A stretch of DNA of 21,058 nt from a virus (IMGVR_UViG_3300022725_000261:1-21058), one strand, 5' to 3'. Counted from the first letter of the stretch, positions 14-7,253 are shown. Notes: generated by a model not told the origin, from the letters alone. Made by a program: numbers and translations.

Positions 14-397
14 TCAGTCGAACACCCGCGCCGGCTGCTCGTCCCACGGCAGGGACGCCACGAAGCACAGGTCGTAGAGGCTGATCGCGCAAGGCTCGCG
101 GCGCAGGACTAGGCGCTCGAGGACGTCCGGCGACAACCATGCGAGGCGCAGGAGGCGGCTGACATAGCGGTCGGAGAGGCCCTCCTCGGCGGCGAGATCG
201 GCGATGGTGGTGATCTCGCCGCGCTCCATCCGCTTCCGCCACGCCCATGCCCGGCCAATCGCGCGCAGCACGCGGGGATCCTGCCCCGCCGGCGGGTCCA
301 GCGTCTCGATGTCCTTCGGTGGAAGGATACGCGGCCGCCCGCCGCGTTTGCGGACCGTGAGCGGGATGTGGACGCGGATTGTGTCGTTCATGGGCAT
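14..397 (-). CDS. Small HTH protein, last gene of the recombinase operon
   Basis: A 127-residue protein of unknown function. The ATG overlaps the recombinase stop by one base (TGATG), so translation is probably coupled and this start is favoured; a second ATG two codons in is possible. The N-terminus is basic and contains KRGGRPRILPP. Residues about 60-95 (DLAAEEGLSDRYVSRLLRL, then LSPDVLERL) look like a helix-turn-helix of the ParB/KorB kind, so DNA binding is likely. From memory, small proteins like this often follow recombinases of this group in Alphaproteobacteria. A role as recombination directionality factor or regulator is only inference from position. The reading frame is intact and G/C-rich at third positions like its neighbours. 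Confidence 0.75.
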   Translation of the reverse strand: MPMNDTIRVHIPLTVRKRGGRPRILPPKDIETLDPPAGQDPRVLRAIGRAWAWRKRMERGEITTIADLAAEEGLSDRYVSRLLRLAWLSPDVLERLVLRREPCAISLYDLCFVASLPWDEQPARVFD

Positions 398-1764
398 CAG
401 GCGGCGTCCTCCTGCGCGGGCGTCATCAGGCTCGCCAACGCGCCCAGCCCGTCATGGCGCAGGTCGATGTCGAGCCCATCCTCGCCCACCGTCACGCGTG
501 CCGCGAGCAGCTGGACGACGCGGGCCTGCTCGGCCGGGATCAGCGCCTTCCACAGATCGTCGAACTGCGTCAGCGCCGCGGTCACGGTGCCCTCGTCGAG
601 GTCGGGACGCTCCTTCTTCAGCGCGCGGGAGGTGCGCGCGATGATCTCGGGCGTGCGCATCAGCCGCCGGATCTCGCCGATGACCGCCTCCTCGACCATC
701 GCCGCGGGGAGCCGCTGGGGCCCGCGCAGCTCGGCCGTCGGCCGTTTCTGGATCACGTCCATCGAGACGTAATAGCAGTACCGCCTGTTGCCCTTCTTCG
801 TGTGATGCGGGGTCATCGCGGCGCCGGTCTCGGTGAAGATCAGCCCGCGCAGCAGCGCCGGTTCGGTGCTCCGCGTGCGCCCGGCGCGCTGGTTCCGGTT
901 GCCGGCCAGCACGGCATGGGCGGCGTCCCACAACTCCGCATCGATGATGGGCTCGTGCATGCCGGGATAGGTCTCGTCCTTGTGGGTGATCTCGCCGCGG
1001 TAGATGCGGTTGTGCAGAAGCTTGTAGAGCGCCCCGCGGTCGATGGGCCGGCCGCGCTTCGACCGGATGCCGCGGGCGTTCAGCTCCCGGATCACGGCGG
1101 CGGTGGAATCGGAGCGCGCGAAGAGTTCGAACATGGTCCGGACCTGCGCGGCCTCGGCCTCGTTCACGATCAGCTTGCGGTCGACCACGTCGTACCCGAG
1201 CGGCACGTAGCCGCCCATCCACATGCCCTTCTTCTTCGAGGCGGCGACCTTGTCGCGGATCCGCTCGCCGATCACCTCGCGCTCGAACTGGGCGAAGCTG
1301 AGTAGGATGTTCAGCGTCAGTCGGCCCATCGACGTGGTGGTGTTGAAGGACTGCGTGACGGAGACGAATGTCACGCCGTGGCGGTCGAAGATCTCCACCA
1401 GCTTCGAGAAATCCATCAGCGCGCGGCTGAGGCGGTCGATCTTGTAGACCACGACCACATCGATCAGCCCGTCCTCGACATCGGCGATCAGTTGTTTCAG
1501 CGCCGGCCGGTCCAGCGTGCCGCCCGAGAACCCGCCGTCGTCGTAGCGCTCGCGCAGGCAGGCCCACCCCTCGGCGCGCTGGCTGGCGATGTAGGCCTCG
1601 CAGGCCTCCCGCTGCGCGTCGAGGCTGTTGAATTCCATGTCGAGCCCTTCCTCGCTCGACTTGCGGGTGTAGACGGCGCAGCGCAGGCGGCGTGCCGGTT
1701 CGGTCTGGATCTTTTGGTCATCGGGTGCCTCCGGTCTGGTCGAGTCCGAAGAAGCGCCAGCCAT
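397..1764 (-). CDS. Serine recombinase (large resolvase/invertase type)
   Basis: Site-specific recombinase, presumably the integrase of the element. The resolvase domain has YTRKSS with the nucleophile at about Ser36, FNSLDAQREACEAY, YDDGGFSGG, and VVVYKIDRLSR (about 104-114) with the active-site arginines. A recombinase domain follows (LGYDVVDRKLIVNEAEAAQVRTMF is split here as LGYDVV and NEAEAAQV; then LYKLLHNRIYRGEI), then a C-terminal DNA-binding part; 455 residues from this ATG. The start is doubtful. The ATG that overlaps the DUF2924 stop (ATGA, 1718-1721) is out of frame by one base, and one extra A in the A4 run at 1712-1715 would give MTKKIQTEP joined directly to the resolvase domain. 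The first 20 or so residues from the ATG used here are read over the DUF2924 tail. Translation may therefore be altered or weak. Confidence 0.9.
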   Translation of the reverse strand: MAGASSDSTRPEAPDDQKIQTEPARRLRCAVYTRKSSEEGLDMEFNSLDAQREACEAYIASQRAEGWACLRERYDDGGFSGGTLDRPALKQLIADVEDGLIDVVVVYKIDRLSRALMDFSKLVEIFDRHGVTFVSVTQSFNTTTSMGRLTLNILLSFAQFEREVIGERIRDKVAASKKKGMWMGGYVPLGYDVVDRKLIVNEAEAAQVRTMFELFARSDSTAAVIRELNARGIRSKRGRPIDRGALYKLLHNRIYRGEITHKDETYPGMHEPIIDAELWDAAHAVLAGNRNQRAGRTRSTEPALLRGLIFTETGAAMTPHHTKKGNRRYCYYVSMDVIQKRPTAELRGPQRLPAAMVEEAVIGEIRRLMRTPEIIARTSRALKKERPDLDEGTVTAALTQFDDLWKALIPAEQARVVQLLAARVTVGEDGLDIDLRHDGLGALASLMTPAQEDAA

Positions 1765-2215
1765 TCCAGTGCGCCCCGGTGATCGCACGGACCGCGGCCG
1801 ACAGCGACTTGAAGCGCCGGCCTTGCCATTCGAAGCCGTCCGCCAGAACGGTGACCATGTACTCCTCGCCGCCCCACTCGCGGACCAGCTTCGTGCCGGG
1901 CGCCGGCTTGCGCGGATCCGCCACCATGCCGCCGAGCTTGCCGCTCATGATCTCGTCGGCCAGCGCATCGAGCGTGCGGCGCGTTTCGCGGCGCAGCCCA
2001 CCATGGGCCAGTTCCTGGATGCGGTAGCCGAGCCGAAGCTCGAGGTTGCCGCGGCTGGCGTTCGGCGCGCGCTCCCCGAAGATGGCCTGCCACTTCTCCT
2101 GCAACTCGGGCACCGTCATCGCCTTCAGCGCCGCCAGTTCGGCCAGGACGTCGATCCTTTCGGCCTGGGGCGCGGGCGCGGCCTTCGCGCCTGATTTTCT
2201 TGTGTTTTTCCTCAT
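1718..2215 (-). CDS. DUF2924 family protein
   Basis: A 165-residue protein that matches the DUF2924 family as I recall it. Visible marks are ALKAMTVPELQEKWQAIFG near residues 30-47, NLELRLGYRIQELAHGG, and a C-terminal half with WGGEEYMVTVLADGFEWQG and SLSAAVRAITGAHWNGWRFF. The function is not established; the family is almost always next to serine recombinases of this type, so it may help recombination or bind attachment-site DNA (inference). The ATG at 2215 overlaps the stop of the upstream small gene (ATGA). A longer in-frame reading to 2491 exists but would overlap that gene and adds an Arg/Ser-rich, non-protein-like segment. Its own stop overlaps the expected recombinase start. Confidence 0.88.
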   Translation of the reverse strand: MRKNTRKSGAKAAPAPQAERIDVLAELAALKAMTVPELQEKWQAIFGERAPNASRGNLELRLGYRIQELAHGGLRRETRRTLDALADEIMSGKLGGMVADPRKPAPGTKLVREWGGEEYMVTVLADGFEWQGRRFKSLSAAVRAITGAHWNGWRFFGLDQTGGTR

Positions 2216-2430
2216 GCGTCGTCTCCAACTCGGTTGCGAACCTGTCTCCGACGACGGCGTCTCAGGGCGAGGATGTCCAGCGAACTGTCTCCATCGAGCG
2301 GAGACTTCTCGTTCGTTTCCGGTGGGTTGGTACGCGAGATGGCGCTGGCGAGGATGCTGGTCAGTTCCTCCAGCCGCTCTTGAGTATTGAGCGTCTCGGC
2401 GGGCGGCGCGAAGGTGATGTCGTCTTGCAT
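2212..2430 (-). CDS. Small conserved protein, first gene of the recombinase operon
   Basis: A 72-residue protein. The first half (TLNTQERLEELTSILASAI) looks like one amphipathic helix; the second half is Ser/Asp-rich and ends in a run of six arginines (ALRRRRRRQVRN). I recall similar short proteins directly upstream of DUF2924 in other alphaproteobacterial elements, but no function is known to me. An AGGAGG lies on the minus strand about 11 bases before the ATG, and the stop overlaps the DUF2924 start by ATGA. Both support it as a real gene. The arginine run could contact DNA or the recombinase (inference). Confidence 0.7.
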   Translation of the reverse strand: MQDDITFAPPAETLNTQERLEELTSILASAISRTNPPETNEKSPLDGDSSLDILALRRRRRRQVRNRVGDDA

Positions 2431-2672
2431 GGGGAGCGAACCTCCTGAGGTGGTTTGCTCCGAGTTCGCCGCTCACGTGGAGGGATTTCAACTTGAAACA
2501 GCCAGTTGTCGTGGCAGGTGGTAGCCGAGCGCACCATATAGGGTTTGGCCGTCAACACAGCTGGAGCAGCGCAAATCCTCTTAATTTCCGGCCGACCAAT
2601 TGCAAAACTGAAAGTAGCGGAAGCCGAACTGGACGATTCGCCACGTAAAATGTGTTCGGCCAGAACTCCGCG
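2431..2672. other. Spacer between recombinase operon and protease; composition boundary
   Basis: No gene is seen in these 242 bases. They must hold the end of the protease transcript and the promoter of the recombinase operon, both leftward. A 7-bp inverted repeat, GCCGAAC (2623-2629) and GTTCGGC (2654-2660), lies 13 bases beyond the protease stop but has no T-run, so it is not a convincing terminator. I could not find a good promoter. Around 2450-2500 the base composition changes from GC-rich to near balanced. Confidence 0.5.
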
Positions 2673-5291
2673 CTACCGAGTTGGTACTGCCACCTGCTGA
2701 CGGAGACGTTCTCTAATCCGCTGGTACACTGCGACTGGCACATCAACGCCCACCTCGAGTGTCACAGCTACAGCATATGGAATCGGCACATCCAAATCCC
2801 CGGCGGGCGGCTTGCAGGATAAATTCAATACGATACTTCCGCCATCCACGAAAGGCTTTGCATCTTCTCCCGCCCAGCGCCGATGAAACACGGTCCCACG
2901 TCCAAAGGAATTGTGAGAGGGCTGGTCTTTTGCATTGCCCACCCCAAGCGATAGGCCTTTGTCGCTGCCATGATTGATTTCTAGCTTGGCCATTCGATAC
3001 ATCCGATGAGCAGCATTAAGTGGCGAAAGCCAGGCGGCAGTCGCTGTCACTGCACGAAATCCACCAAGATTCTCGAGTTCTGCTGGAATCGGGATCCGAA
3101 ACTCATCCGTTTCCTTAGCGTGTATCGTATTCCATCCAATCAGTGTTGCCCTATTTTCCGCGCAGTCAATAACACGTTCAATGTCTACAATCCCAAATCC
3201 AAGAAGCCGGGCTGCGTCATCGCGCCGATGCTCCCAGTAGCTCGTCCCGTTTTCCTTGGAGATTTCTTCTATTTTTCCAGCAACTTCCGCATCCCATCTC
3301 GCTGCGTGGACCAGTAATGCCTTGAGTACGACTGCATGGAATGAAGGCTCCACTGTGGGATGTGGCGGTTCTGCCGGGAGTTCTTCCAATGCTTTCAAGA
3401 TGCGCAACGCACCGTGTGTCGCCAACGCAGTTGCAACACTGGTGCCGCTAAAATTCAATTTCTTTGCAGTCTCACCCGCAGGGCCTGGGGCGGCTGCCCC
3501 GATCCCAAAAAAGCGCCCCGGTTGTCGTACGGGTATTACTGATATCGGTGCAGTATTCCTATTTGTTCGAACGTGCTCGCGTCCGCCCGGCAGTAAGAGC
3601 TCAGGCTTTACACCCCTCATGTAGCCGAGTCCCTGCGCTGAGCTTGGGTTTGGAAGGCAGGGGTTAGCATACGGATCGACAGCCATCGTGCCGGCGCCGT
3701 TAGGGGCGATCTCGTCGTAGTGCGCTGCACCGATCGTTAGGCTATTGAGCCCTTCCGAGGGGGCGAGAAGGCGGCGACGTGCGCGGTTTTGCAGGATCGC
3801 CTTCAAGAGAGTCGTTTCCCGCTCTGCAGGTTCTGAATCCTCGAAGTCCGACCACGCCGCAACTTCTGCAAGCGGTACTGGGTCAGGGATATTACCGGCA
3901 CTCACCAGAATGAGAACACCATGTTGCCAGGCAAGGTAATCGATCAATCTTGCCCAAGGACTCAAAACACCCGCGAAACGACGTTTCAAATCTCCCAACG
4001 ACATATTCACGACCCGCACTGTGGGTGCCGTGGGCTCTTCGTCGCCTTCGCCTTCAAACATACGGATAAACGCGCGCCAGATCAGGTCGATCGCCAGCTT
4101 GTCCGGGGGCATTCGTTCTTCGAATGCGTCAAAACCAACCTGCTGCGGGTACATCACCGGACGCACATAGAGCCGACGCGTAACCGGGCCGGTTGGCGCT
4201 GTGCTGTTCAAATCGCCGTGCAGGATCAGCGAGGCCATACTCGAACCATGTACCTGCTGAGCTGCTTGCCCGTACTGAGCAGCGAAGTCATCGGGATCAT
4301 CTATTTCGAGCCGACCGGCAAGCTTCTGGTGTTGAGCCATCGGCATGCCGTCAAGGAGAGCAGCAACTGGCGCTGCCAGTTCTTCCTCTTCATCAGGTTC
4401 AGTATCGCTGGCTTCTTCCAGGTCGGGACCATGAGGGTCTGCGACGAGGGATTGAGGCCTCAGTACCATCACTTCGTCGAATGCGGCGAGGCCAATATCT
4501 GGATTGTCCAGAATGTCTTGCACGAATTCCGGGAGAACTTCGACCAGAGCTGCGTCATAACGTATTTCCGGGATCGTCGCGCGATCAAGTAGTTGGCCCC
4601 CAGCATCCCCAATTACTGCCGCAAGGCGCTGATGCGCCCGATCACGGAGGGCGGCGGTCGCACGGTACCAGAATTCCACCTCAAAACGGACCGGATCATC
4701 AGGTAACTCGCGGAGACGTTCCAGCCACTCCTGCTTGGCATCTTCCGTCACCCTGTCCTGGGGCCCCCACGGCCGAATATCAGACAGATGCGCGAAGACT
4801 CTTTTCCATTCCGTATGAGGCCGGGAAATTTCCTCACCGTTCTGGTAACGGTTCCATAGGCTCACCAGCTCTCGCAACGCGGCCGCGTCAGGCAAAGTAA
4901 AATATAGACGGCGTGGAACGGATTTATCTACGCGGCGGTTGCCATCTTTATCGGTTGTCGCGAAGTCGTCGTCTGGTTCGAATTCATCCTCGTCTTCGCC
5001 CAAGAGTTCGAGCCCGCTGACCTGTCTAAGCGCGCGATGAAAGTCAACCTTGCTGCTGGCAATTTCGAAAACAAGAGCCCGCTCGGGTGCAATGGCCGCA
5101 GGATCTTGCCTTAACTCTGAAAGTCGCTGTGCATCTGGAAGGGCTTGCGAAAGCCGGTCAAATTTTGGGCCGAGACGTTCAGCTTGCCGCCCTGCTGAAG
5201 GCGCAACAACTTTTTCAGGAACCGGCCTAGCAGACCCTTTCGGCGTTTTGCGGTTGGGTTGCATCAATCCCAAAAGATGACGTTCAGCCAT
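2673..5291 (-). CDS. ietS: IetS-like subtilisin-family (S8) serine protease
   Basis: An intracellular subtilase of 872 residues with no signal peptide or membrane segment. The triad is Asp314 (ALLDG), His348 (VHGSSMASLILHGD) and Ser618 (SGTSVATALATHG), with the oxyanion Asn467 in LVSAGN. Residues 1-310 form a long non-catalytic N-terminal part with acidic stretches at about 98-109 and 290-306, the second just before the catalytic Asp. About 230 residues follow the catalytic Ser. The gene begins 3 bases after the AAA+ ATPase stop, so the two are co-transcribed. This gene order and pairing is that of IetAS, where IetS is the toxic protease held in check by IetA (Ti-plasmid work) and the pair gives phage defence. 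Substrate and trigger are unknown. Composition is much less GC-rich than the flanking phage genes, which suggests separate acquisition. Confidence 0.85.
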   Translation of the reverse strand: MAERHLLGLMQPNRKTPKGSARPVPEKVVAPSAGRQAERLGPKFDRLSQALPDAQRLSELRQDPAAIAPERALVFEIASSKVDFHRALRQVSGLELLGEDEDEFEPDDDFATTDKDGNRRVDKSVPRRLYFTLPDAAALRELVSLWNRYQNGEEISRPHTEWKRVFAHLSDIRPWGPQDRVTEDAKQEWLERLRELPDDPVRFEVEFWYRATAALRDRAHQRLAAVIGDAGGQLLDRATIPEIRYDAALVEVLPEFVQDILDNPDIGLAAFDEVMVLRPQSLVADPHGPDLEEASDTEPDEEEELAAPVAALLDGMPMAQHQKLAGRLEIDDPDDFAAQYGQAAQQVHGSSMASLILHGDLNSTAPTGPVTRRLYVRPVMYPQQVGFDAFEERMPPDKLAIDLIWRAFIRMFEGEGDEEPTAPTVRVVNMSLGDLKRRFAGVLSPWARLIDYLAWQHGVLILVSAGNIPDPVPLAEVAAWSDFEDSEPAERETTLLKAILQNRARRRLLAPSEGLNSLTIGAAHYDEIAPNGAGTMAVDPYANPCLPNPSSAQGLGYMRGVKPELLLPGGREHVRTNRNTAPISVIPVRQPGRFFGIGAAAPGPAGETAKKLNFSGTSVATALATHGALRILKALEELPAEPPHPTVEPSFHAVVLKALLVHAARWDAEVAGKIEEISKENGTSYWEHRRDDAARLLGFGIVDIERVIDCAENRATLIGWNTIHAKETDEFRIPIPAELENLGGFRAVTATAAWLSPLNAAHRMYRMAKLEINHGSDKGLSLGVGNAKDQPSHNSFGRGTVFHRRWAGEDAKPFVDGGSIVLNLSCKPPAGDLDVPIPYAVAVTLEVGVDVPVAVYQRIRERLRQQVAVPTR

Positions 5292-5294
5292 GGA

Positions 5295-6290
5295 TTACCT
5301 CGCGCTCTCTTCTTGCCCCATGGGTTTCGCACGATCTTCCCAGGCCTTAATCTGATCCGCAAAGATGGTTTTCAGAGGGGTCTCCCGCATGGAGAGTACT
5401 TCCCGACGCTTAACATCAAGAATGAACTCCTCGGCCTCTGCATAGCTAATCGGGCCAAGACGTTTCGCCAATGTCGCAGGCGCGATACCCGGCTTACCGT
5501 CAAAATTCTGGATATGCCGATCAAAAAAGACTGCCAGCTCTTTCTCAGTCGGAGCTGGCAAAGGCAAACGGAGTTGGAATCGGCGCCAAACGGCTCGGTC
5601 GAGCAGTTCCGCATGGTTGGAGGCCGCAATGATTACTGCGTAACTTGGGAGCTCATCGACATGCATAAGGAGTGACGACACCACTCGCTTAATTTCTCCT
5701 GTTTCATGGGTGTCTCCACGTTCTTTCCCTACGGCGTCGAATTCATCGAAAAAGACCACGCAGGGCGTTGTGCGTACATAGTCAAAAACGCGTTTCAGCC
5801 GGTTCGCAGTTTCGCCCAGGTAGCTGCCAATCAACGCCTCATATCGAATGACAAAGAATGGAACGGCGAGAGCTTCTGCAATCGCTTCCGCAAGAGATGT
5901 CTTGCCATTGCCGGGAGGACCGACCAGCATGATCCGGTGGCGAGGGTCCAGACCATGAGATCGCAGCAAACTTGCTCGCTGTTGCTCTTCGATCAGTTGG
6001 TCAACCGTCTTTCGTGTCTGGTCAGCTAGGACCATGTCACTGAGCTGATGCCTTGGAGTCAGCTCGGCGAGAAATTCGCGGCCGCGGATTCCAGTGTCAT
6101 GAGCCATTTGATTCATAGCACGTGTACCGTTCCCGTTGGTGTGCAGGGCGCGGGTGAGGCGCTCTGCAAGTACCCGATGCTGCTTTCCCTTCTCATCAGC
6201 AATTATGCCCTCAACAGCGGTTCGGACGGCGTTTTTATCGCCGCTGACGCTCGCCTTTACGAGGGAGAGGAGAAGATCACTTCGCGCCAT
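5295..6290 (-). CDS. ietA: IetA-like AAA+ ATPase
   Basis: A 331-residue classical AAA+ ATPase with one ATPase module. Walker A is GPPGNGKT (124-131), Walker B VVFFDEFD (178-185), sensor 1 AASN with Asn225, and the arginine-finger region DRAVWRRF (231-238). The pore-loop-like RYEALIGSYLGET (149-161) suggests substrate threading or remodelling. About 80 helical residues precede the module. The ATG at 6290 is chosen because it overlaps the ribbon-helix-helix gene by only 14 bases and is the first ATG; a TTG at 6329 would extend it by 13 residues. It lies immediately upstream of the subtilase gene. In IetAS the ATPase is reported as the antitoxin-like partner of the protease. A housekeeping FtsH/Spastin-type role is less likely because there is no fused protease or membrane part. 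Confidence 0.85.
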   Translation of the reverse strand: MARSDLLLSLVKASVSGDKNAVRTAVEGIIADEKGKQHRVLAERLTRALHTNGNGTRAMNQMAHDTGIRGREFLAELTPRHQLSDMVLADQTRKTVDQLIEEQQRASLLRSHGLDPRHRIMLVGPPGNGKTSLAEAIAEALAVPFFVIRYEALIGSYLGETANRLKRVFDYVRTTPCVVFFDEFDAVGKERGDTHETGEIKRVVSSLLMHVDELPSYAVIIAASNHAELLDRAVWRRFQLRLPLPAPTEKELAVFFDRHIQNFDGKPGIAPATLAKRLGPISYAEAEEFILDVKRREVLSMRETPLKTIFADQIKAWEDRAKPMGQEESAR

Positions 6291-6468
6291 CTGCACCGGT
6301 TCCGTTTTTTGTTCTTTTAAGTCTTTCAATCAGTGCTTCAACGATCCAGTGGTTTCGCGAGACAGGCACTTCTGCGTTACCCACGCACGAGTCGATTTCC
6401 TTCAGGATCCGTTCTGGCACCCGGACTGTCACCGGAACACGACCGTTATCGCCTTGTTGATCGCTCAT
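6277..6468 (-). CDS. Ribbon-helix-helix protein, first gene of the IetAS operon
   Basis: A 63-residue protein with a CopG/Arc-like ribbon-helix-helix pattern: the strand VPVTVRVPERILKEID, a turn, then VSRNHWIVEALIERLKR as the second helix. Such proteins bind DNA as dimers and commonly repress their own operon. The gene overlaps the ATPase start by 14 bases, so it belongs to the same transcript. The ATG at 6468 is preferred to a GTG at 6492, because the GTG lies inside a TGTGA-TG-TCACA inverted repeat that could be the operator; neither start has a strong ribosome binding site. No classical toxin of the RelE/ParE kind is next to it, so an autoregulator of the protease/ATPase pair is the best reading (inference). 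Confidence 0.75.
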   Translation of the reverse strand: MSDQQGDNGRVPVTVRVPERILKEIDSCVGNAEVPVSRNHWIVEALIERLKRTKNGTGADGAK

Positions 6469-6481
6469 TGCTTGACGCCAT

Positions 6482-6493
6482 TGTGATGTCACA
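6482..6493. promoter_or_regulatory. Candidate operator upstream of the ribbon-helix-helix gene
   Basis: TGTGATGTCACA is an inverted repeat with 5-bp arms and a 2-base centre, 13 bases before the ATG of the ribbon-helix-helix gene. The size and symmetry suit a small dimeric repressor. Only one copy was found, and short palindromes occur by chance. Confidence 0.3.
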
Positions 6494-6575
6494 CTGGAGT
6501 CATAGCTAGTCGCGGCTCCTGCGTCGACCTGATATTTTGTAACTAGTATCGTCCGTGCACCTCAAAGCAGTCACC

Positions 6576-7253
6576 TCAGATTTCCCGCGCGAACCATCGG
6601 ATGCGGCCGACGATGTGGATCTCGTCGGCCGTTCGCTCGTAGGGGCTGTAGAAGCCGTTGTCCGAGATGACGCGGACGGCGGGCGGGTCGCTGTTCGGGA
6701 TATGCTCGAGCCGTTTGGCCACCAGCCCCATGCCGTCGTCCAGCACGAAGATCCCCGGCGGGTTCGGCGCGCGGCGGGCCATGTCCACCAGCACCGCGTC
6801 GCCGTCGAGCAGCGTCGGCGCCATGCTGTCGCCCTCCACATGCATGATGCGCAGCTGCGAGGGGCTTGCCCGCAGGCTGTGCCGGATCCAGGAGCGGCGG
6901 AAATGGTAGGCGCGGTCGGCGGTGTCCTCGTGCTCTTCGACCACGGCGCCGCCGCCCATCGACGGCCGCGGGCTTGCATGCGCGATCGACACAAACGCCT
7001 CGTCCGGGTTCTCGATGAAGGGGGGCGTGCCCTCGACATCGCCGATCCCGTGGATCAGCCAGTCGCGGTCCACCTTCAGCACGTGGGCGACGCCGCCGAG
7101 TTTCTCCATGCCGGGGCGTGTCGAACGACCGCGGAGGATGTCGTAGACGAAGGAACGGTTCACGCCGGCCATCTCGGCGACGTGGGCGGGGCTGATGCCG
7201 AGCTGCTGGGCCCGGGCCCGGAGGCGGTCGGCAAGCGTGTGGTGCTCTGCCAT
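6576..7253 (-). CDS. Phage repressor, XRE helix-turn-helix with S24 peptidase domain
   Basis: A CI/LexA-like lysogeny repressor of 225 residues. The N-terminal XRE helix-turn-helix is at about 6-62 (DRLRARAQQLGISPAHVAEM, then NRSFVYDILRGRS). The C-terminal S24 peptidase fold has the Ser143/Lys180 dyad in VEGDSMAPTLLDGD and GLVAKRL. The linker (about 80-115) shows GGGAVVEE but no obvious Ala-Gly or Cys-Gly cleavage bond, so SOS-induced self-cleavage is plausible but not proven. The ATG at 7253 begins the domain; an in-frame extension to 7388 would cross its own promoter region. It is divergent from the gene at 7363, the usual cI/cro layout. Its composition is GC-rich, like the phage genes and unlike the adjacent IetAS island. 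Confidence 0.92.
   Translation of the reverse strand: MAEHHTLADRLRARAQQLGISPAHVAEMAGVNRSFVYDILRGRSTRPGMEKLGGVAHVLKVDRDWLIHGIGDVEGTPPFIENPDEAFVSIAHASPRPSMGGGAVVEEHEDTADRAYHFRRSWIRHSLRASPSQLRIMHVEGDSMAPTLLDGDAVLVDMARRAPNPPGIFVLDDGMGLVAKRLEHIPNSDPPAVRVISDNGFYSPYERTADEIHIVGRIRWFAREI

Follow-up and report, generated by a model that had tools for sequence, protein, structure and literature searches.

A three-gene IetAS operon in a viral genome

The DNA analysed here is the whole 21,058-base virus record IMGVR_UViG_3300022725_000261 (the window), in which an operon of the IetAS type lies on the minus strand at 2673-6468. Its two large genes encode an AAA+ ATPase (IetA) and an S8 subtilase (IetS), and a small gene for a ribbon-helix-helix (RHH) protein stands before them. 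The IetAS pair is already known; the RHH-headed form with its own candidate operator is apparently unreported. In order of transcription, the genes are:

6277-6468, minus strand: RHH leader gene, 63 amino acids (aa), ATG at 6468 to stop at 6277; homologues in the same place, dN/dS, predicted fold
5295-6290, minus strand: ietA, AAA+ ATPase, 331 aa, ATG start (MARSD...); PADLOC IetA PDLC04232, conserved N-terminus
2673-5291, minus strand: ietS, S8 subtilase, 872 aa; PADLOC IetS PDLC04233, Pfam Peptidase_S8

IetA matched PDLC04232 with E=4.8e-146 (profile positions 1-326 of 330) and IetS matched PDLC04233 with E=3.9e-287 (positions 1-850 of 855). These full-length matches bear out the IetAS assignment of a preliminary description, made from the sequence alone, which had proposed such a profile search. 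The ATPase-protease order on one strand, the 3-nucleotide (nt) gap between the genes (5292-5294) and the complete Asp/His/Ser triad were likewise present as described there. A mechanical open reading frame (ORF) call begins ietA at TTG 6329 (344 aa); because homologues begin with MARSD, we place the start at ATG 6290. In IetA, Walker A (GPPGNGKT), Walker B (FFDEFD) and the arginines of a WRRF motif are intact, and in IetS the catalytic residues Asp314, His348 and Ser618 and the oxyanion residue Asn467 were invariant across 40 homologues. No annotated ietAS pair was seen in region 1-50000 of the Ti plasmid.

A search by sequence for solved structures related to IetS found none. The AlphaFold2 model of the protein was confident (mean predicted local distance difference test score, pLDDT, 89.8) and had structural neighbours: residues 199-709 superposed on unprocessed pro-subtilisin E including its propeptide (Z 22.4, 321 residues, 3.5 Å). 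In the model, an I9-propeptide-like domain (about residues 199-280) precedes the subtilase domain, the linker at residues 286-298 being modelled with low confidence, and the C-terminal part forms a beta-sandwich. As the match includes the propeptide, a zymogen-like build, as in subtilases, is predicted for IetS.

The composition of the operon sets it apart from its surroundings. G+C content is 0.54-0.59 in the three genes versus 0.64-0.70 outside, and G+C at third codon positions is 0.50-0.55 versus 0.87-0.92; RHH, ietA and ietS are therefore regarded as acquired genes.

The RHH leader gene

The preliminary description had noted a ribbon-helix-helix gene overlapping the ATPase gene, and this gene proved to be real, its 3' end overlapping ietA by 14 nt (6277-6290). 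An alternative start at GTG 6492 would give 71 aa. Homologues of the gene recur in the same place. Purifying selection on the gene was seen in the only close pair that was measured, the closest whose members are not identical: nonsynonymous divergence (dN) was 0.062 there and synonymous divergence (dS) 0.386. The frame might be a chance ORF before ietA, as it is small, its stop is set by ietA codons and the equivalent ORF on a Paracoccus plasmid is unannotated. We consider this probability practically negligible, because homologues recur and dN is low relative to dS; in addition, a candidate operator lies at the RHH start codon. The exact overlap of 14 or 11 nt was dropped as independent evidence, since the RHH stop is carried by the conserved MARSD codons of ietA.

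Searches of PDB and Pfam with the RHH sequence were empty or sub-threshold. NCBIfam YlcI_YnfO_N scored 27.8 bits (cut-off 30), and relatives of the protein matched RHH_1, one at E=0.007 and another at E=0.016, which is below cut-off. The structural model shows an extended VTVRVP segment followed by helices at residues 19-31 and 38-54, i.e., strand-helix-helix, and its structural neighbours were mostly RHH proteins (among them TraM, omega, PutA, ParD, NikR, and Arc); the best match had Z 4.9 over 47 residues at 2.0 Å, for a small protein. By this predicted topology, the protein can be placed in the MetJ/Arc superfamily with modest confidence. After the second helix follow about 9-20 poorly conserved residues (9 in the window copy, at low confidence), and a ParD-like C-terminal toxin-binding extension is absent.

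Distribution of RHH leaders among IetA loci

The upstream regions of about 110 IetA loci were read in all frames. Homologues of the window's RHH (type a) were found at L014/L048/L099, L016, L019, L092, and L097, and damaged or strongly diverged copies at L012, L013, and L018; further searches added intact copies at L248 and L283, a premature stop at L284 and a remnant at L285. In this branch of 19 loci, the RHH gene is intact in 10 (4 of them near-identical), decayed in 5 and without trace in 4; since L012 and other loci come from metagenome assemblies, a single lesion may in some cases be an error of assembly. The gene is thus far from absent in related loci: the preliminary description had not counted it as a standard part of IetAS, and by this count it is a recurrent part of one IetA branch. 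Most IetAS loci are without an RHH. All five loci with a decayed RHH keep complete ietAS reading frames, and RHH is therefore dispensable at least in those loci.

In the IetA tree, type-a loci need one change versus the other labelled groups, as in 97% of bootstrap trees (branch 90/77). Because the backbone of a smaller IetA tree was weak, a single origin of type-a RHH appears likely but not firm. A profile search of seven genomes with such loci gave one match each in four, located at ietAS, two weak matches in one and none in two. A tblastn search of plasmids with the RHH returned a single match; it lies in Pseudanabaena, is unrelated and has no IetAS in its vicinity. Nothing was found in viral contigs with the RHH as single query. 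An RHH-headed IetAS with an operator was not mentioned in PADLOC or in the open-access IetAS papers searched, which is weak evidence limited to the open-access literature. RHH is a recurrent and apparently unreported part of one IetAS branch.

Other small leader genes were observed as well. A second RHH-like leader (type b) occurs on a Paracoccus plasmid, where it is unannotated, and in Pseudoduganella (L007:3757-4017, L023:4727-5011); both loci have AAATCATGAA in common before the gene. Directly before ietA there is a small Cro/C1-type helix-turn-helix (HTH) gene at L077:4760-4972, L081:4823-5053, L108:4784-4993, and L109:4769-4960, and an HTH_17 excisionase-like gene at L073:4669-5004. Varied small DNA-binding leaders therefore recur in IetAS loci.

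A candidate operator over the putative promoter

Three regularly spaced boxes and a putative promoter lie directly before the RHH gene:

6473-6502, no strand assigned: candidate operator of three boxes, TGACTCCA / TGACATCA / TGGCGTCA in minus-strand reading, matching at 18/18 positions
6499-6504, minus strand: TATGAC, putative -10, which runs into the first operator box; register to the box shared by five loci
6522-6527, minus strand: TCGACG, putative -35, separated from the -10 by 17 bp; promoter comparison

The boxes (6502-6495, 6491-6484, and 6480-6473) follow the 8-bp consensus TGRNNYCA at 11-bp spacing, and 4 nt separate the end of the array from the RHH ATG. The 8-mer TGACATCA is shared by the upstream regions of RHH genes from loci in which IetA has only 58-66% identity to that of the window. 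Around it, the consensus scored 5.3/6 at offset -11 and 4.0 at +11; nearly all other offsets scored <3, the exceptions being -22, two spacings away (3.9), and +24 (3.3). The window, L016, and L283 each have a perfect three-box array (18/18), while a score of ≥15/18 was reached in 1 of 102 IetA loci without RHH (Fisher p=4e-6) and a perfect array never in shuffled sequences. A spacing of 11 bp scored 16.1, other spacings ≤12.4. Within the window the array is unique, with 0.01 expected by chance at ≤2 mismatches.

In five loci the best sigma70-like promoter keeps one register to the array: its spacer is 17 bp, and the first box starts two bases after the start of its -10. Judged by sequence, operator-like boxes are repeated across the putative promoter of the RHH operon, as would suit an autorepressor. 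We infer that an array over the -10 would be placed as in classical repression by occlusion, and the three boxes are probably the operator of RHH.

A variable defence slot in related prophages

The operon lies between the repressor gene and the recombinase module of the phage:

6576-7253, minus strand: CI-like S24 phage repressor, left slot edge; Pfam Peptidase_S24 and HTH, PHROG repressors
2513-6575, no strand assigned: cargo flanked by the stop codon of the repressor and a conserved right boundary; flank alignments, slot sizes, low G+C
2212-2430, minus strand: conserved small phage ORF, 72 aa (MQDDI...), right slot edge; alignment, overlaps the DUF2924 start
1718-2215, minus strand: DUF2924 protein of the recombinase module; Pfam PF11149, E=2.2e-47
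397-1788, minus strand: large serine recombinase, start codon unsettled; Pfam Resolvase and Recombinase

In transcription sense, the minus strand carries the CI-like S24 repressor, RHH, ietA, ietS, the small phage ORF, DUF2924, and the serine recombinase; in Wolbachia phage WO, DUF2924 also adjoins a resolvase-family integrase. Phage early genes occupy the plus strand from about 8.4 kb onwards; they encode a helicase, a Cas4-like exonuclease, a primase/helicase, a RuvC-like resolvase, a ParB/methyltransferase, and a DNA methyltransferase.

Related loci were collected from viral contigs by repressors 59-93% identical to the window's and the presence of DUF2924; counting the window, 53 loci had both genes. 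The slot flanks were aligned in 16 related prophage loci. The left junction coincides with the stop codon of the repressor; on the right, the junction lies at a conserved CGACAA...TTGAA stretch. Slot length was 341-5466 bp, with 6 slots near-empty, and slot G+C was below that of the phage in every case. Defence cargo in related slots included PifA (E=1.6e-234), a GmrSD-type protein (7.9e-185), and PD-Lambda-4 (5.3e-265), besides OLD, LmuB, AbiJ-like, and PIN_8 genes. The slot of L144/L191/L197 holds another IetAS, whose IetA is only 35% identical; no RHH was found in L191 (L191:10701-14124). A variable defence slot is common to these Rhodobacterales-type prophages. Since slots of related prophages are near-empty or filled with other defence genes, the gap between recombinase and repressor is indeed a cargo position, as had been presumed from the window alone.

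Proteins encoded in the L142-L240 slots were often uncharacterised, e.g., one of 829 aa (L236) and a family of 239-243 aa directly after the repressor. At the right slot edge in related prophages, window positions 2480-2512 hold a conserved CGACAA...TTGTTT.AACTTGAA with a TTCAAsTTGAA palindrome; this stretch could possibly be a promoter, an operator or a recombination point.

Searches with the repressor found the phage family in 7 of 197 Rhodobacterales genomes. The 143 genomes searched from the class to which G002, an assembly of Pseudomonadales, belongs gave no match, in a search without positive control. We consider it rather likely, in a judgement that includes autorepression by RHH, that the three-gene IetAS operon is defence cargo of a temperate phage, probably of Rhodobacterales. 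The pair could instead serve mainly to retain the prophage in the cell, as an addiction module like that on Ti plasmids, rather than to fight other phages. Relatives of IetAS stabilise a Ti plasmid and SGI1 (PMC5006074, with Yamamoto 2009 cited therein); however, the same slot elsewhere holds genes with antiphage profiles that are not addiction modules, such as PifA, PD-Lambda-4 and OLD, and we regard retention as the main role as rather unlikely. The two roles are compatible with each other.

Proposed control of the operon

The evidence from the locus and its relatives is best explained, with fairly good probability, by a phage-borne three-gene IetAS operon in which RHH represses its own transcription through the boxes and IetS is released by an infection signal. 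RHH dimers would bind the three boxes side by side, covering the -10 region and the leader, and would thereby repress their own operon, so that IetA and IetS are kept low and in proportion. Some basal expression in the lysogen may come from transcripts that run on out of the adjacent upstream repressor gene. IetA, the antitoxin in studied relatives, would restrain or deliver IetS until a phage signal unleashes the protease; cell or phage proteins would then be cut and the infection stopped. RHH would thus set the dose, and the trigger would act at the protein level. In SgiAT (PMC5006074) and in a pair from mycoplasma (PMC8562856), the AAA protein is the antitoxin and the S8 protein the toxin. 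Phage resistance has been linked to an IetAS on a Pf phage, and the action of IetAS on phages is stated to be unknown (PMC11878078).

Because RHH has decayed repeatedly beside intact ietAS, it is probably a transcriptional autorepressor setting the dose rather than an essential antitoxin, and it is apparently not needed for surviving the toxin. The suggestion of the preliminary description that RHH may keep the toxic protease silent and release it on phage entry is less well supported than autorepression, given the five loci with decayed RHH and the AAA protein as antitoxin of the relatives (PMC5006074, PMC8562856). RHH might still act as a second antitoxin, by binding to IetS or IetA and blocking it. 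Antitoxins are frequent among RHH proteins, its structural neighbours include ParD and others of this kind, and its gene stands first. We judge this very unlikely, as the short tail after helix 2 lacks a ParD-like toxin-binding extension and loss of RHH is tolerated.

Another explanation, which takes up the idea of the preliminary description, casts RHH as a phage sensor or switch: infection would inactivate it, the operon would be derepressed, and a burst of IetS would kill the cell. The overlap of operator and promoter fits such a switch, and SgiAT reportedly needs activation for expression (PMC5006074). Constant derepression is tolerated, however, with RHH decayed in five loci and missing in four more of the branch, and most IetAS loci do without it; a switch of this kind appears unlikely. 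A wider version, in which IetAS branches gained differing DNA-binding leaders (RHH type a, type b, Cro/C1 HTH) and the repressor of the RHH branch doubles as infection sensor, with phage interference derepressing the protease toxin, seems quite unlikely.

Several points weigh against autorepression of a phage-borne IetAS operon as set out above. The NCBIfam equivalogs IteA (228.4 bits, cut-off 510) and IteS (47.5 bits, cut-off 900) were not reached; as both cut-offs were missed, the pair is a divergent IetAS member in PADLOC's sense, outside the narrower NCBIfam IteA/IteS group. The propeptide-like domain of IetS was seen solely in a predicted structure, the RHH model had a pLDDT of only 64, and the Pfam matches of RHH stayed under cut-off. 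The promoter is weak, with no call in a stricter promoter scan, and a clear array is missing in L019/L092, in L018, and in both type-b RHH loci. The box consensus was derived from the loci that it scored, a circularity limited by the perfect match, the fixed spacing, and the controls.

How IetAS is kept harmless is poorly understood, and RHH with its sharply defined candidate operator offers a testable handle on this control. The natural loci with decayed RHH tell which part is dispensable, and the prophage slot is a predictable place for further defence genes in Rhodobacterales phages.

Comparison with known systems

Like IetAS of pTiC58, the PADLOC antiphage system and SgiAT of SGI1, the operon consists of an AAA+ gene followed by an S8 subtilase gene, with intact motifs, on a mobile element. 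Unlike these, it is headed by an RHH gene with a candidate tandem-box operator, which is absent from PADLOC's definition, and it is carried by a phage between repressor and recombinase.

Third-gene RHH proteins are known from omega-epsilon-zeta (omega) and PaaR-PaaA-ParE (PaaR), in which they are strict repressors acting via repeated operators near the promoter (PMC3874152). Judged by its sequence, the window RHH resembles omega and PaaR as a small third gene with repeated boxes near its own putative promoter; it differs in heading an AAA/subtilase pair and in having three 8-bp boxes at 11-bp spacing. Its likeness to solved RHH proteins such as omega is one of fold only, with no sequence match.

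RHH repressors of the MetJ/Arc type bind 8-bp palindrome-like boxes repeated along one helix face. The candidate operator shares the tandem 8-bp boxes, but its spacing is 11 bp, not 8 bp, and its box is TGRNNYCA.

Prophage defence slots are known from P2/P4-like phages, and the slot described here resembles them in its conserved flanks and in its exchangeable low-G+C defence cargo between lysogeny genes. Unlike those slots, it starts exactly after the CI stop codon, lies before a DUF2924/serine-recombinase module and belongs to Rhodobacterales-type prophages.

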